From assembly GCA_019694795.1 (NCBI GenBank), contig JAIBBF010000014.1, positions 1 to 62,402 of the forward strand: a DNA stretch of 62,402 nucleotides. The letters are read 5' to 3'. Source of the DNA: Flavobacteriales bacterium (GTDB lineage Bacteria > Bacteroidota > Bacteroidia > Flavobacteriales_D > UBA2798). The notes below the pieces were generated by a model. The model was not told the DNA's origin. It searched no databases and saw only the letters and a program-made list of their open reading frames with translations. The number at the start of each line of letters is the position of its first letter. Position 1 is the first letter of the stretch. The position numbers were made by a program, and so were the translations under genes. Positions 2,642-57,514 of this stretch are shown here, in pieces.

Positions 2642-3751
2642 ATGGTTTCGAAAAGCATGGTAAGAATGGCCCTAATCTCGTTTAAAAAATTATTCCCGCT
2701 TCTCGCGTTTATTTTTGCGTTCAATTTTTCTCATGCCAGTGGCGGTGAAGGTGAATTCAAAGCGGGAGAGATGATTATGCATCACATCTCTGATGCGCAT
2801 GAAATTCACTTCTTTGGACACGTTGCAATTCCTCTCCCGGTTATTATTGTAGATGGCGGGGTAAAAGTGTTCATGTCCGGTTCATTTTACCACAACCCCA
2901 AAACCACCTTCGATCCAAAATCGCATTCTGAAGTAGAATACTACGAGCACGAAGGGTATGTGCTTTACCATGAAAAAATCTATAAGCTTTCCGGAGAAGA
3001 ACTTAAACTCGATGCTGAAGGTCACCCGATGAACGCCGCTTCTGTTGTTGACTTATCCATCACCAAAAGTGTATTGGGTCTTTTCATCGTAATGTTCATT
3101 GTGATTTTCATCTTCAAAAGCATTGCTAAAAAATATAGTCAAAACGAAGGAAAAGCTCCAAATGGTTTACAAAACGCATTAGAGCCTTTCATTCTCTTTA
3201 TCCGCGACGAGGTGGCCAAGCCTTCTATCGGACATCATTACGAGCGTTTCATGCCTTTTCTGTTAACGATTTTCTTCTTTATCTGGACCTCCAATATATT
3301 GGGACTTATTCCTTTCCTCGGTGGTTTCAATATTATGGGAACACTGAGCGTAACCATGGTTTTCGCACTCGGTGTTTTTGTAGTTACATCTATAAATGGA
3401 AATAGTCACTATTGGGGACACTTATTAAACCCTCCCGGAGTTCCTGGATTTGTAAAAATTATTTTAGTTCCTATCGAAATCGCGGGGATTTTTATCAAGC
3501 CGATTGTATTGATGATTCGTTTAACGGCGAACATTACTGCCGGACACATTATCATTTTGGCCTTTGTTAGCTTAATCTTCATTTTCGGTCAGTCAAGCGC
3601 TGCCACCGGTTATGGTGTTGGCGTTGGGGCTACAGCGTTTATGGTTTTCATGAACGTATTAGAACTCTTGGTTGCTTTTCTTCAGGCATATGTATTTACA
3701 TTGTTAGCTGCGATCTATTTCGGATCTGCAGTTGAAGAAGCGCATCATTAA
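2642..3751 (+). CDS. atpB: F0F1 ATP synthase subunit a
   Basis: 369 residues. It has an N-terminal signal-like hydrophobic stretch and a His-rich periplasmic extension of the Bacteroidota type (MHHISDAHEIHFFGH), followed by the membrane domain. The essential stator arginine of subunit a is R293 in the segment IRLTANITAGHIIILAF, and the final helix carries LQAYVFTLLAAIYFG, as expected for the proton half-channel. Subunit a works with the c-ring to turn proton flow into rotation in the inner membrane. Start: ATG 2642 is chosen because a -7 promoter element ends 14 bases upstream; ATGs at 2657 and 2666 are possible alternatives. The longer open frame back to 2471 runs through the 3' end of the preceding gene and is unlikely. 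Confidence 0.93.
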   Translation: MVSKSMVRMALISFKKLFPLLAFIFAFNFSHASGGEGEFKAGEMIMHHISDAHEIHFFGHVAIPLPVIIVDGGVKVFMSGSFYHNPKTTFDPKSHSEVEYYEHEGYVLYHEKIYKLSGEELKLDAEGHPMNAASVVDLSITKSVLGLFIVMFIVIFIFKSIAKKYSQNEGKAPNGLQNALEPFILFIRDEVAKPSIGHHYERFMPFLLTIFFFIWTSNILGLIPFLGGFNIMGTLSVTMVFALGVFVVTSINGNSHYWGHLLNPPGVPGFVKIILVPIEIAGIFIKPIVLMIRLTANITAGHIIILAFVSLIFIFGQSSAATGYGVGVGATAFMVFMNVLELLVAFLQAYVFTLLAAIYFGSAVEEAHH

Positions 3752-36188: not shown

Positions 36189-37511
36189 ATGGAATACCTG
36201 GTGCAAGCCGGACAATTGATCCTGAGTCTTTCAATTCTGATCGTTTTACACGAATTCGGACATTTTATACCTGCTCGTATTTTTAAAACCAGAGTCGAAA
36301 AATTTTATCTCTTTTTTAATCCCTGGTTTTCTCTTTTCAAAGTGAAAAAAGGAGAAACCGAGTGGGGACTGGGATGGCTTCCTTTAGGAGGTTATGTAAA
36401 AATTTCGGGGATGATTGATGAGAGTATGGATAAAGAACAAATGTCCAAACCCGCCGAACCCTGGGAATTCAGAAGTAAACCAGCTTGGCAACGATTAATC
36501 ATTATGCTGGGTGGTGTTACTGTTAATTTCATTCTTGGTTACCTCATTTACATCATGGTATTATTTGTTTGGGGAAAACAGTATTTACCTACAGAAAACG
36601 CCACGTATGGAATGTACATCAACAATCCTGCTTTATTGGGAGAAGACAAATTACTGCACGGAGATATTCTTGTGAGTGTAGAAGGCCATCAACCCAAAAC
36701 ACTGGCCGATGCGGGCACAATGATCATCATCGACGGTGCGCGTAAATTAGAAGTCATTCGCAACGGTTCGCTTAAACAAGTCACCCTACCGGGTGATATC
36801 AGCGATCAGTTATTGGAAAGCGGAAAAAAATCTTTGCCTTTTGATCCGCGTGTTCCCTTTGTAGCCGAAAGCGTAAAAAAAGGAATGGGTGCAGATGCAG
36901 CGGGAATTCAAAAAGGAGATAGCATTATTGGGGTGGACAATGAAATGAATCCTTTCTTTCAGGATATAGCCAATTATCTGGGCGAACACAAAGCCAGCAC
37001 AGTCCAATTACATATCGTGCGCAATGATTCATCGTTAACCATTCCCGTAGAAGTAAATGAAGACGGATTCATCGGTATACAACCGGTTAGTCCCGATAAA
37101 TTTCTAAGCTATAAAACCGAAAAATTTACCTTTCTGGAATCGATTCCCGAAGGCATAAGTACGGGAACAGAAACGCTCGTTAATTATGTAAAATCACTGG
37201 CCCTGGTATTTTCACCGGCCGGCGCCAAACAACTGGGAGGATTTGGAAGCATAGGTGGTATGTTTCCAAAAAGTTGGGACTGGCAAAAGTTTTGGTTGCT
37301 CACTGCGTTTATTTCCATCATTCTTGCATTCATGAATCTCTTACCCATTCCTGCCCTGGATGGCGGACATGTAATGTTTCTGATTTATGAAATGATTCGC
37401 GGTAAAGCACCAAGTCAGAAATTCCTTGAAATTGCGCAAACTATCGGAATGGTTTTATTATTAGGACTATTGGTATATGCCAACCTCAACGATATTTTAA
37501 AACTGTTTTAA
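36189..37511 (+). CDS. rseP: site-2 intramembrane metalloprotease RseP
   Basis: 440 residues. The zinc-binding motif HEFGH is at 21-25 in the first membrane helix, and the LDG motif is at 390-392 in the last part. Between them are two PDZ-like domains (about 130-210 and 225-300). It cleaves membrane-anchored regulators, such as anti-sigma factors, after a first cut by another protease. An ECF sigma factor and a putative anti-sigma protein occur later in this window (55840-57514), but a link is not shown by sequence. Promoter at 36139-36172. Confidence 0.93.
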   Translation: MEYLVQAGQLILSLSILIVLHEFGHFIPARIFKTRVEKFYLFFNPWFSLFKVKKGETEWGLGWLPLGGYVKISGMIDESMDKEQMSKPAEPWEFRSKPAWQRLIIMLGGVTVNFILGYLIYIMVLFVWGKQYLPTENATYGMYINNPALLGEDKLLHGDILVSVEGHQPKTLADAGTMIIIDGARKLEVIRNGSLKQVTLPGDISDQLLESGKKSLPFDPRVPFVAESVKKGMGADAAGIQKGDSIIGVDNEMNPFFQDIANYLGEHKASTVQLHIVRNDSSLTIPVEVNEDGFIGIQPVSPDKFLSYKTEKFTFLESIPEGISTGTETLVNYVKSLALVFSPAGAKQLGGFGSIGGMFPKSWDWQKFWLLTAFISIILAFMNLLPIPALDGGHVMFLIYEMIRGKAPSQKFLEIAQTIGMVLLLGLLVYANLNDILKLF

Positions 37512-40433: not shown

Positions 40434-41267
40434 CTAACGCAGGAGCGTAATCGTTCCTTTTTGCTCGTAATTTACACCATCGTATCCTACTGCTTTTATC
40501 CAGTAGAAATAGGTTCCTGTTGGACAAGCCACTCCGGCAGGAAAGGTATACCCATCCCAAAAACCCCGCGGTCCGTTCCAGGCTTGTACGATTTCCCCGT
40601 AGCGGTTCATAATGGTACACTCCAGCTCTTTTATCCCCATCACCTGTGGCATAAATAAATCGTTTACGCCATCTTCGTTTGGACTAAACACATTGGGTAT
40701 GGTTAAAGAAGAAGCGGACAAAACCAGCACATTTGCAAAGGCCGTATCAGAACATAGTCCGTCTGTTACAACGAGTGAAGCAGAATAATTTCCGGCCAGG
40801 TTGTAGTTGTGAATAATCGATGTGATTCCACCACTCGCGGTTCCGTCGCCATAATCCAGCAGTGAACCAGTGTGACCAACCGAAGCATCCGTAAACAGCA
40901 CGTCCTCCCCAACAAAAACAGTAGTGGCGCTCACCAATAAATCGGCACTTAAAATTGAATTAGGAGAAATAACAATGGTATCGCTTACCGAACAGGGTTG
41001 TGGCGACTGAACAACTACAATGTATGTACCCGGACTTAAATTAGAAAACACATTCGAAGCAGAGAAGGTTAATCCCCCATCAATAGAATACGTTAAGGAA
41101 GGCGCTCCGGAAGCGTTAATCGTAAGAGACCCGTTGCTGGAATAGAAGCAATCCGGATTGACCACACTATATGAATCGATGGTACAAGCCTGCGAAACAT
41201 AAGCCCAACCCAACAACAGGATTACAGCCCAAAATTTCAAAACCACATGTAATCGAATCATCCGCAT
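40434..41267 (-). CDS. secreted protein with SprB-like repeat, PKD domain and T9SS type B sorting domain
   Basis: 277 residues: signal peptide (about 1-27), a SprB-repeat-like segment (about 30-95; the shape is NPDCFYSSNGSLTINASGAP, then YSIDGG.TF......LSPGTYIV), a PKD-like domain (about 108-185; LDYGDGTASGG..SIIHNYNLAG), and a C-terminal gliding-motility-associated domain from about 190 (IPNVFSPNEDGVNDLFMP...) of the type B sorting class. SprB is the mobile adhesin of Flavobacterium. This is a short relative in domain content, likely exported by T9SS and attached at the surface. A -7-like element (one mismatch) lies 13 bases upstream. Confidence 0.85.
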   Translation of the reverse strand: MRMIRLHVVLKFWAVILLLGWAYVSQACTIDSYSVVNPDCFYSSNGSLTINASGAPSLTYSIDGGLTFSASNVFSNLSPGTYIVVVQSPQPCSVSDTIVISPNSILSADLLVSATTVFVGEDVLFTDASVGHTGSLLDYGDGTASGGITSIIHNYNLAGNYSASLVVTDGLCSDTAFANVLVLSASSLTIPNVFSPNEDGVNDLFMPQVMGIKELECTIMNRYGEIVQAWNGPRGFWDGYTFPAGVACPTGTYFYWIKAVGYDGVNYEQKGTITLLR

Positions 41268-41305
41268 TGGTATAGTGACGTAAATTTAATCGATTTTGTT
41301 GCTTT

Positions 41306-55723: not shown

Positions 55724-55839
55724 GATGAATAGGCTTCAATATTACCCAGAATTCCTTGACCTTGGGCGTTTCTTTCACTATTTTGCTTACCCAATGCAAC
55801 CTTTAAATTGGATTTTCAGTCTTTAATTTCGAACGATCC

Positions 55840-56373
55840 ATGAATGATGAACAGCTGATCCGTGAATGTCTCGAAGGCAGGCCGGGAGCCCAAAAAGCTC
55901 TTTACGACCGGTTTTCGCGTAAAATGATGGGTGTTTGCTTAAGATACTCAGCAAGTTACGAAGAGGCGCAGGACATCCTTCAGGATGGTTTCGTTAAGGT
56001 TTTTGAGAAATTAAAGTCCTTTAACGGTATGGGTTCTTTTGAAGGTTGGGTAAGGCGGATTTTTGTTAATACGGCTTTGGATGCGTATCGGAAGTCGAAA
56101 CAGGAACGCCAAATGCAGGATATAGATGATGTAGGTTATGCACTTTCATCGGGGCACGACATTGTATCTGATATTTCAGCTGAAGATTTACTTAAAATTC
56201 TTCAGAAGATTCCCGCAGGATACCGGATGGTTTTCAATTTATATGTGATTGAAGGATACAGTCACAAAGAAATCGGAGATCAGCTGGGAATTACCGAAAG
56301 CACTTCAAAGAGTCAATTTTCGAGAGCTAGAAGTTATCTGATGACTATTCTCGAAAAACAAAACATGATATAA
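55840..56373 (+). CDS. ECF-type RNA polymerase sigma factor
   Basis: 177 residues. Sigma region 2 (about 8-80; ALYDRFSRKMMGVCLRYSASYEEAQDILQDGFVKVFEKL) and region 4 (about 115-170; LQKIPAGYRMVFNLYVIEGYSHKEIGDQLGITESTSKSQFSRAR) are both complete. This is a typical ECF sigma factor of the Bacteroidota type. The next gene starts 4 bases later (GTG) and looks like its membrane partner. A -7-like TAATTTCG (55824-55831, one mismatch) lies 8 bases upstream of the start. Confidence 0.93.
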   Translation: MNDEQLIRECLEGRPGAQKALYDRFSRKMMGVCLRYSASYEEAQDILQDGFVKVFEKLKSFNGMGSFEGWVRRIFVNTALDAYRKSKQERQMQDIDDVGYALSSGHDIVSDISAEDLLKILQKIPAGYRMVFNLYVIEGYSHKEIGDQLGITESTSKSQFSRARSYLMTILEKQNMI

Positions 56374-56377
56374 GAAC

Positions 56378-57514
56378 GTGGAAAAGAATACGAACATAGA
56401 AGATCTCTTCAGAGATAAATTAAACAGCCTAGAAGCCGATCCGGGTCCTGGTGTTTGGGAGTCGCTGCAGTCGCAAATCGGGCAGTCCTCTACGGTTTCT
56501 TCCGTAGCAGGCAGCACGAGTGTTTGGTCAACAAAAGGAATACTTTTGGTTTCCGGAATATCGGTACTTGGTGGCTTAGGACTGGGATATTTCATTTCAT
56601 CCAATAACAGCGAAGCGGCGAAAGAAAACAATCCTAAAACGGAAACAGTTGCCATTGAAAATACCAATCCGGTAACAGAGAGTAACGAATCGCCGATTAC
56701 GTTTACCGAAACGGATCATACATCTTCCATCATTTTAGAAACAAAACCCCAAAAACCGGGAGAAAGTCCGCAAAAGGTGAAAATCACGGTTAAAAACGAT
56801 AATAAAGGGGAATCCATTGCTAATTTTTTCATGACGCCAAGCGCCAAGAAAGAACAGCTGATGCAAAACCCTGCCGTAGTTACAAACGACAAATCTTCCG
56901 AAAACAACAAAAGCACTTCTGCTAACCCTATTGCAACCGACACGAAAAAGGAGAATTCAGTTGTACAGGTAAAAGAAGAAAAGCTGGTAGAAAACCACGT
57001 GGTTGCTTTGATTAAGGCAAGTACTACGGGTGGACCTGCCCCATTATATGTTGAATTCAGCAATGAATCGTCCGCAGAAAATCTCGAATGGAATTTTGGT
57101 GATGGAGAAATCTCTAAAGAAGCTAATCCGCTGCACAAATTCGAAGAGCCCGGTTCATATACCGTATCGGTGGTGGTAAAAGATCAAAAAGGAAACCGGT
57201 CAACCGATCAAATTACCATTGTAGTACGCGAAGGATCATCCATTAAAAATCCAAATGTTTTTTCACCGAATGGTGATGGAAGAAATGATTATTTCGAGTT
57301 TGAAACCAAAAATATTACAGCGCTAACCGTTCAGGTGATTGAAATAAAATCCGGACGTGTATTGTTTGAAACAGATGATGTAAACTTTAAATGGGATGGT
57401 CGCGATAAAAGCGGCACGAAGGTGGATCCGGGGGTTTACATGTACCAGTTCCGGGCCATTGATAAATCCGGTAAAGAATACAAAGGCGCGAGTCAGCTGA
57501 CCATTAACTATTAA
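56378..57514 (+). CDS. membrane protein with anti-sigma-like N-terminus, PKD domain and gliding-type C-terminus
   Basis: 378 residues from GTG 56378. A cytoplasmic N-terminal part (about 1-45; NIEDLFRDKLNSLEADPGPGVWESL) resembles the short anti-sigma/FecR-like N-termini in Bacteroidota. One membrane helix (about 51-71) follows, then a low-complexity linker, a PKD domain (about 208-285; WNFGDGEISKEANPLHKFEEPGSYTVSVVV), and a C-terminal gliding-associated/FlgD-like domain (about 290-378; NVFSPNGDGRNDYFEF and WDGRDKSGTKVDPGVYMYQF). It starts 4 bases after the sigma gene stop, so the two are coupled. It is probably the anti-sigma or sensory partner; this is inference. Confidence 0.75.
   Translation: MEKNTNIEDLFRDKLNSLEADPGPGVWESLQSQIGQSSTVSSVAGSTSVWSTKGILLVSGISVLGGLGLGYFISSNNSEAAKENNPKTETVAIENTNPVTESNESPITFTETDHTSSIILETKPQKPGESPQKVKITVKNDNKGESIANFFMTPSAKKEQLMQNPAVVTNDKSSENNKSTSANPIATDTKKENSVVQVKEEKLVENHVVALIKASTTGGPAPLYVEFSNESSAENLEWNFGDGEISKEANPLHKFEEPGSYTVSVVVKDQKGNRSTDQITIVVREGSSIKNPNVFSPNGDGRNDYFEFETKNITALTVQVIEIKSGRVLFETDDVNFKWDGRDKSGTKVDPGVYMYQFRAIDKSGKEYKGASQLTINY

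Follow-up and report, generated by a model that had tools for sequence, protein, structure and literature searches.

In the flagellar checkpoint formed by FlgM and FliA, the activity of a sigma factor is tied to secretion status; the targets of the sigma factor are late cargo, and FlgM is a soluble protein that is itself exported. In Bacteroides thetaiotaomicron, the dual membrane-spanning anti-sigma factor Dma is paired with the ECF21 sigma factor Das (PMC13088901). Dma consists of an anti-sigma domain, a transmembrane (TM) helix, a long disordered tether and a C-terminal barrel; the ECF21 sigma gene is adjacent, and the targets of the pair are vesicle and glycan-use genes. Type B cargo of the T9SS, such as SprB and PG1035, has a CHU_C fold with an FTPNGDGxND start, and the published partners of type B CTD proteins are PorP/SprF-like (PMC9143113). 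In the PorA-PorXY-SigP system of Porphyromonas gingivalis (PMC7712824), a CTD protein acts upstream of a T9SS-linked ECF sigma factor. PorA is a separate surface protein there, SigP controls T9SS components via PorX, and there is no anti-sigma fusion.

The locus studied here lies in a window of 62,402 nucleotides that spans contig C14 completely, in a Flavobacteriales genome of 3.45 Mb and 124 contigs. The gene at 55840-56373 on the forward strand encodes an ECF sigma factor of 177 residues in which regions 2 and 4 are both present (Sigma70_r2, 4e-16; Sigma70_r4_2, 1.2e-14; NCBIfam ECF superfamily model TIGR02937, 98.8 bits). Four nucleotides past its stop codon, a GTG codon starts the partner gene (56378-57514, forward strand). 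Its product of 378 residues is a predicted membrane-anchored anti-sigma factor, judged by its domains and by homologues that stand behind ECF sigma genes. A sequence-only reading of the window had described the two as a sigma factor and an anti-sigma-like partner with one membrane crossing, a PKD domain and a gliding-type C-terminal domain, and the profile, hydropathy and neighborhood data bear this description out.

The single hydrophobic segment of the partner is a TM helix at residues 55–73 (56540-56596; mean hydropathy 2.0), and no other segment exceeds 1.4. The N terminus is charged and the TM segment is internal, without an N-terminal signal peptide; from this topology we infer that residues 1–52 (56378-56533) are cytosolic. 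The membrane helix is followed by a tether rich in N/E/K/T/S (residues 75–212, 56600-57013), which is predicted to be disordered from its composition and a pLDDT under 50. A PKD domain occupies residues 213–282 (57014-57223), with PF18911 (PKD_4) matching residues 216–282 at 2.9e-14. The C-terminal domain (residues 290–370, 57245-57487) is a CHU_C domain that resembles a T9SS type B CTD but contains no RWG motif. It scores 50.3 bits with PF13585 (cut-off 27), and the partner reaches 31.9 bits with the NCBIfam type B sorting model TIGR04131, under the cut-off of 35. The AlphaFold model of the partner has a mean pLDDT of 54.7; the CHU_C part alone is reliable, and the PKD and TM parts are poorly modelled. 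Two short helices are predicted in the N terminus, at residues 7–16 and 23–34 (pLDDT 55–67), and alignments show a near-invariant Trp-27. Within the otherwise variable tether, the short motif SIANFFMTPSAK (56813-56848) is conserved in alignments with near relatives, where it recurs in forms such as S..N.FLTPKSR. It is a possible cleavage or docking site.

In the order of its parts (a predicted anti-sigma domain at the N terminus, then a TM helix, a long disordered tether and a C-terminal module) and in the adjacent ECF sigma gene, the partner has the layout described for Dma. As set apart by that published description, it is Dma-like and not a Dma because the C-terminal outer-membrane β-barrel is missing, and PKD and type B CTD-like domains stand in its place. 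The predicted targets also differ, being T9SS cargo here. The likeness to type B cargo is confined to the CHU_C fold and the FTPNGDGxND start. Compared with such cargo, the partner has a cytosolic N terminus and a TM anchor and falls short of TIGR04131; since both the signal peptide and the RWG motif are missing, it is probably not T9SS cargo. With PorA-PorXY-SigP it shares the link of a CTD protein to an ECF sigma factor, but here the CTD-like domain is fused to the anti-sigma module. With FlgM and FliA it would share the proposed coupling of a sigma factor to secretion, with cargo as targets, although the partner is anchored in the membrane and bears no more than an imitation of the export tag.

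The pair is conserved across Flavobacteriales, as read from gene order and alignments. A search with the partner gave matches in all of 60 relatives, mostly to the PKD-CHU_C part of long cargo proteins. Full-length partners of 358–397 residues were found at 19 of the 23 loci read, in 19 genomes including this one. The gene directly upstream was an ECF sigma gene in 19 of 19 cases, so the pairing is not due to chance. Co-occurrence with the T9SS was uninformative, as SprA is present in 59 of the 60 relatives. An alignment search with the sigma factor yielded 80 named loci, at 75 of which an open reading frame of >90 residues starts near the sigma stop codon (gap of −30 to +30 nt in 70 of 75). 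No such frame was found at the remaining five (L077, L086, L097, L111 and L120). Cultured bacteria that carry the pair include Crocinitomix catalasitica ATCC 23190 (L069) and Fluviicola chungangensis (L089).

The anti-sigma-like stretch noted earlier at the N terminus is covered by no family in a Pfam search, yet it is conserved and linked to sigma genes. This was established with an HMM built from approximately residues 1–40 of 19 CHU_C-type partners and run on the 75 partners, over residues 1–80 of each. It gave scores of at least 10 bits for 25/25 CHU_C-type partners and for 43/50 other partners, compared with 1 of 746 other open reading frames from these loci and none of 1500 shuffled sequences. 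The partner N terminus is thus, on profile evidence, a modular predicted anti-sigma domain. Half of the non-CHU_C partners (25/50) have an OMP_b-brl_2 match at E ≤ 0.01, some of them under the curated cut-off, so that the module is common to this partner and to β-barrel partners in other Bacteroidota; Dma itself was compared by its published description. In a sigma tree labelled by partner type (CHU_C or not), the distribution of the CHU_C label requires four changes; well-supported branches force at least two of these, and the main clade holds 38 members. One partner of the same family (L102:4036-5667) has PKD and transthyretin-like domains followed by a T9SS tail that resembles type A (26.4 bits against a cut-off of 27) and is possibly a type A counterpart. 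At L125, L127, L139, L141 and other Chitinophagaceae or related loci, the N-terminal Trp motif of the partner is seemingly repeated before the TM segment, and these partners have no recognized C-terminal domain.

The CHU_C domains of partners were compared with those of cargo from the same genome. This genome holds 55 CHU_C matches that are over the cut-off or have neighbors, of which 50 domains were read, leaving aside edge and partial matches and those of the window itself. RWG is present in 42 of the 50 (28/30 and 14/20). One of the eight domains without it (L164) belongs to a second sigma/anti-sigma pair, and this brings the count for cargo to 42/49. Among partner CHU_C domains, RWG occurs in 0/44, and it is also missing from four more, the second pair of this genome and three partners later met via their promoter. 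The tryptophan column holds W, Y or F in 47/49 cargo domains and in 1/45 partner domains, a comparison whose rows are related, so that its Fisher value cannot be read as a real probability. Both groups retain the FTPNGDGxND-like start (42/49 cargo and 41/45 partner domains), and a C-terminal K/R is rarer in partners (29/43 vs 43/49). Because RWG is absent from every partner and present in most cargo, the partner CHU_C domain looks like an export-incompetent cargo mimic.

A structural search with the CHU_C model returned the Fn-type domains of streptococcal cell-envelope proteases (Z 10.0) and the T9SS CTDs of NucA (8.8) and PorU (8.7). At the level of models, these matches reflect a common Ig-like fold and indicate no function. 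The same kind of search with a type B cargo protein encoded in the window (40437-41267, reverse strand) gave PKD matches and no solved type B CTD structure. In a tree of CHU_C domains, the alignment columns were too few.

Upstream of the sigma gene, at 55795-55822 on the forward strand, lies a putative ECF-type promoter, TGCAACCTTT-N14-GTCT. Sigma genes were scanned from −300 to +120, with enough sequence for 98 of 100 genes, and a bipartite consensus with fixed spacing emerged, TGCAACYTTT-N14-RTCW. GCAACYTT was found near 30/45 CHU_C-type sigma genes and near 8/53 other sigma genes, at a background of 0.03 per scan window; it was not found at 15 of the 45 CHU_C-type genes. The AAC-type −35 and GTC-type −10 elements of an autoregulated ECF promoter are both matched in the sequence before the sigma gene. 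A bipartite site of this kind before the sigma gene is what an autoregulated ECF operon would be expected to have, and autoregulation is the best explanation of the predicted site.

The cargo gene of the window just mentioned encodes a type B protein with an SprB-like repeat, a PKD domain and a CHU_C domain with NRYG (Pfam, motif and promoter evidence). It is preceded by a predicted ECF-type promoter, GCAAC-N18-GTCA (41276-41302, reverse strand), 35 nt before its ATG. A homologue in a relative (G002, 39% identity) has TGCAACGTTT-N14-GTCA 36 nt upstream. The N18 spacing is that of the promoter of the sigma gene itself and recurs before three cargo genes of this genome, one of them in the window. 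The cargo gene at 40437-41267 is a predicted target of the sigma factor at 55840-56373, on promoter sequence. The relaxed core also occurs at two sites inside other genes of the window.

For a wider sample of this genome, sequence upstream of 80 cargo genes, 40 of type B and 40 of type A, picked for contig room, was scanned for a relaxed core, GCAAC-N16-18-GTCW, with an ATG 30–120 nt further on; the widening to N16-18 was chosen after the promoter of the in-window cargo gene had been seen. The core with its ATG was present in 10/40 type B regions, 0/40 type A regions and 1/40 antisense regions. Eight of the ten sites are at the start of the cargo gene itself, and two precede another secreted gene farther upstream. 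Spacings of 14–15 and 19–23 gave no sites in the same regions, and each of three altered motifs was found at most once. With the search confined to the 130 nt ahead of the first ATG in the cargo frame, a stricter rule, the counts were 7/40 for type B and 0/40 for type A, and approximate dinucleotide shuffles averaged 0.04. A position weight matrix of 31 positions separated type B from type A upstream regions weakly (p = 0.017; 2/40 vs 1/40 at ≥12 bits).

The strict pattern, TGCAACYTTT-N14-RTCW, was also searched in this genome and 40 relatives, with the backward pattern as control. It gave 45 sites compared with 16 control sites. A gene start lies behind 23/45 strict sites, compared with 1/16 control sites; that one lies outside an open reading frame, and 10/16 control sites are inside frames. 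For the other 22 strict sites, the site falls within an open reading frame or no gene start is nearer than about 110 nt. Nine strict sites precede a sigma gene of the partner-linked family, and seven precede a type B cargo gene, six of which were read through to the CHU_C domain and the seventh (L206) is an orthologue, 96.5% identical over the part compared. Four sites, in relatives, precede type A cargo genes, which means that the cargo link of the strict sites is not purely type B. The last three are before other secreted genes, namely two for proteins of 130 residues and one for a truncated protein that contains a PKD domain and matches SprB weakly. A T9SS tail is present on 11 of the 14 non-sigma genes behind strict sites, compared with about 6% of genes expected (with the gene number assumed). 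In this genome alone, strict sites number one, with one control site; across three genomes, sites with one mismatch number 14, with 11 controls. Because site numbers are not enriched in the genome itself, the argument for a regulon rests on the position of the sites and the class of the genes and not on counts.

The second ECF sigma/anti-sigma pair of this genome, detected with the N-terminal profile, is at L186 (contig C1:17000-22500), with the sigma gene at 2976-3554 and the partner gene at 1553-2974 on the reverse strand. Its partner has PKD-like domains and a CHU_C domain that lacks RWG, and the N-terminal Trp motif is duplicated. The promoter of this pair is GGCAACCCCT with a spacing of N17, which is common to several other cargo genes of the genome. 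Owing to the similarity of the two promoters, targets cannot be assigned with certainty to one sigma factor. A malate dehydrogenase-like gene adjoins the second pair.

Taking together the conserved pair, its domains, the missing RWG and the promoter before both sigma and cargo genes, all of them features of the sequence, we propose that the partner is an autoregulated, Dma-like anti-sigma factor whose mimic of type B cargo couples the expression of such cargo to the secretion machinery. We regard this proposal as evenly poised between right and wrong. Sigma binding, docking on T9SS parts, polarity and proteolysis, which we infer, would fit together as follows. The sigma factor would be tied to the inner membrane by the N-terminal hairpin. 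The outer-membrane β-barrel of the Dma layout would be replaced by the PKD domain and an export-incompetent copy of a type B cargo domain, held on a tether that would let the mimic make contact, at the outer membrane, with the T9SS or with PorP/SprF-like receptors. There the mimic would register the occupancy of type B export sites, free or taken up by real cargo, and the state of these sites would decide the inactivation of the anti-sigma factor, probably via proteolysis. Once released, the sigma factor would transcribe the operon that encodes it and, with it, a group of genes for type B cargo. Free sites would release the sigma factor and cargo-filled sites would leave it bound, a polarity favored because the predicted targets are cargo; the opposite polarity is less likely because jammed export would then raise cargo synthesis.

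An RseP in the window had been put forward as a protease for the partner. An RseP-like gene for an M50 site-2-type protease with a PDZ domain is indeed there (36189-37511, forward strand; Pfam), but it lies 18 kb from the pair, beside dxr and with no tie to it; RseP-type cleavage of the partner is possible. The sequence-only reading had also held that a true sorting signal would be odd on such a protein and that the domain may sense secretion status, and this idea gains indirect support from the RWG-less partners and from the ECF-type promoters before type B cargo. The likeness to Dma, the promoter, its predicted targets and the second pair of the genome are not part of that reading.

Three other explanations bear on the C-terminal domain and on the regulon. 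The PKD-CHU_C part could be a working type B signal, with the protein exported by the T9SS after cleavage, or with its N terminus still in the inner membrane, and serving as a surface sensor of the outside. The tether between the TM segment and CHU_C, with a median of 155 residues at 25 named loci, would be enough to span the periplasm, the domain exceeds the Pfam cut-off, the FTPNGDGxND-like start is kept in 41/45 partners, and the tail of the L102 partner comes close to the type A model (26.4 bits against 27). Yet none of the 44 partner domains has RWG though the remaining fold is kept, the TIGR04131 score is under its cut-off, the C-terminal K/R is less frequent than in cargo (29/43 vs 43/49), and there is no cleavable signal peptide, and we judge a working signal improbable. 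An Ig-like ectodomain with a periplasmic or outer-membrane ligand unrelated to the T9SS is also unlikely, though it has the stronger claim. It would account for streptococcal Fn-type domains (Z 10.0) outranking NucA (8.8) and PorU (8.7), and for CHU_C-like domains in genomes without SprA. In a survey of 296 genomes across the phylum, SprA was found in 228 and CHU_C in 237, and 12 of the 68 genomes without an SprA match have CHU_C-like domains; in 11 of these the domain belongs to a lipoprotein encoded next to recN. An unrelated ligand is harder to reconcile with promoter sites that favor T9SS cargo (in this genome, type B over type A by 10/40 to 0/40, or 7/40 to 0/40 under the stricter rule) and with the resemblance of the domain to the same kind of protein that the predicted regulon encodes.

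The pair could also be an ordinary envelope-stress pair, with the cargo promoters read by different ECF sigma factors that recognize the same class of promoter. The second pair with its GGCAACCCCT promoter at N17 and the presence of GCAACYTT near 8/53 other sigma genes are in line with this. Against it, the N18 spacing of the sigma promoter is repeated before three cargo genes of this genome, including the one in the window, and the strict motif recovers the sigma family itself nine times in the relatives; an ordinary envelope-stress role is improbable. The preferred reading, coupling of type B cargo expression to secretion through the mimic, can be extended to a T9SS checkpoint in which an export-dead tag competes with cargo for a receptor, sigma/mimic pairs (N18 and N17) each serve a cargo set of their own, and Dma barrels are another form of one trans-envelope signalling family. 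We offer this extension more tentatively, as somewhat more doubtful than the coupling itself.

Many surface proteins of Bacteroidota leave the cell via the T9SS, and the pair suggests how the synthesis of cargo could be matched to export capacity. If this is correct, type B cargo would be made only while T9SS export sites are free. A literature search, with most subscription papers outside its reach, found no paper in which anti-sigma factors are connected with CHU_C or with type B CTDs, and no account of matching T9SS cargo synthesis to export capacity. As the sensor, sigma factor, promoter and target genes are all named, the proposal is testable. It would widen the Dma idea to a modular family with an exchangeable part facing the outer membrane, which may be a barrel, a type B-like CTD or perhaps a type A-like tail. 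RWG would provide a simple sequence mark that tells true type B cargo from regulators with the same domain.

Some further proteins were met in these searches. The lipoprotein beside a recN-like gene in 11 genomes without SprA (L170-L180) is lamin-tail-like and has an FlgD/CHU_C-like domain; its PF13585 match is weak, as is its FlgD-like one, and it is not T9SS cargo. Another genome, G326 (L169), has no SprA_N match and a single RWG-less CHU_C protein with a lipoprotein-like start, encoded beside a PorP-like gene; since GldK exceeds its cut-off there, the genome is not usable as a T9SS-free case. The two secreted proteins of 130 residues (L211:1571-1960 and L321:149-538) have no Pfam match and come from two genera of one family, and both genes are preceded by strict promoter sites.
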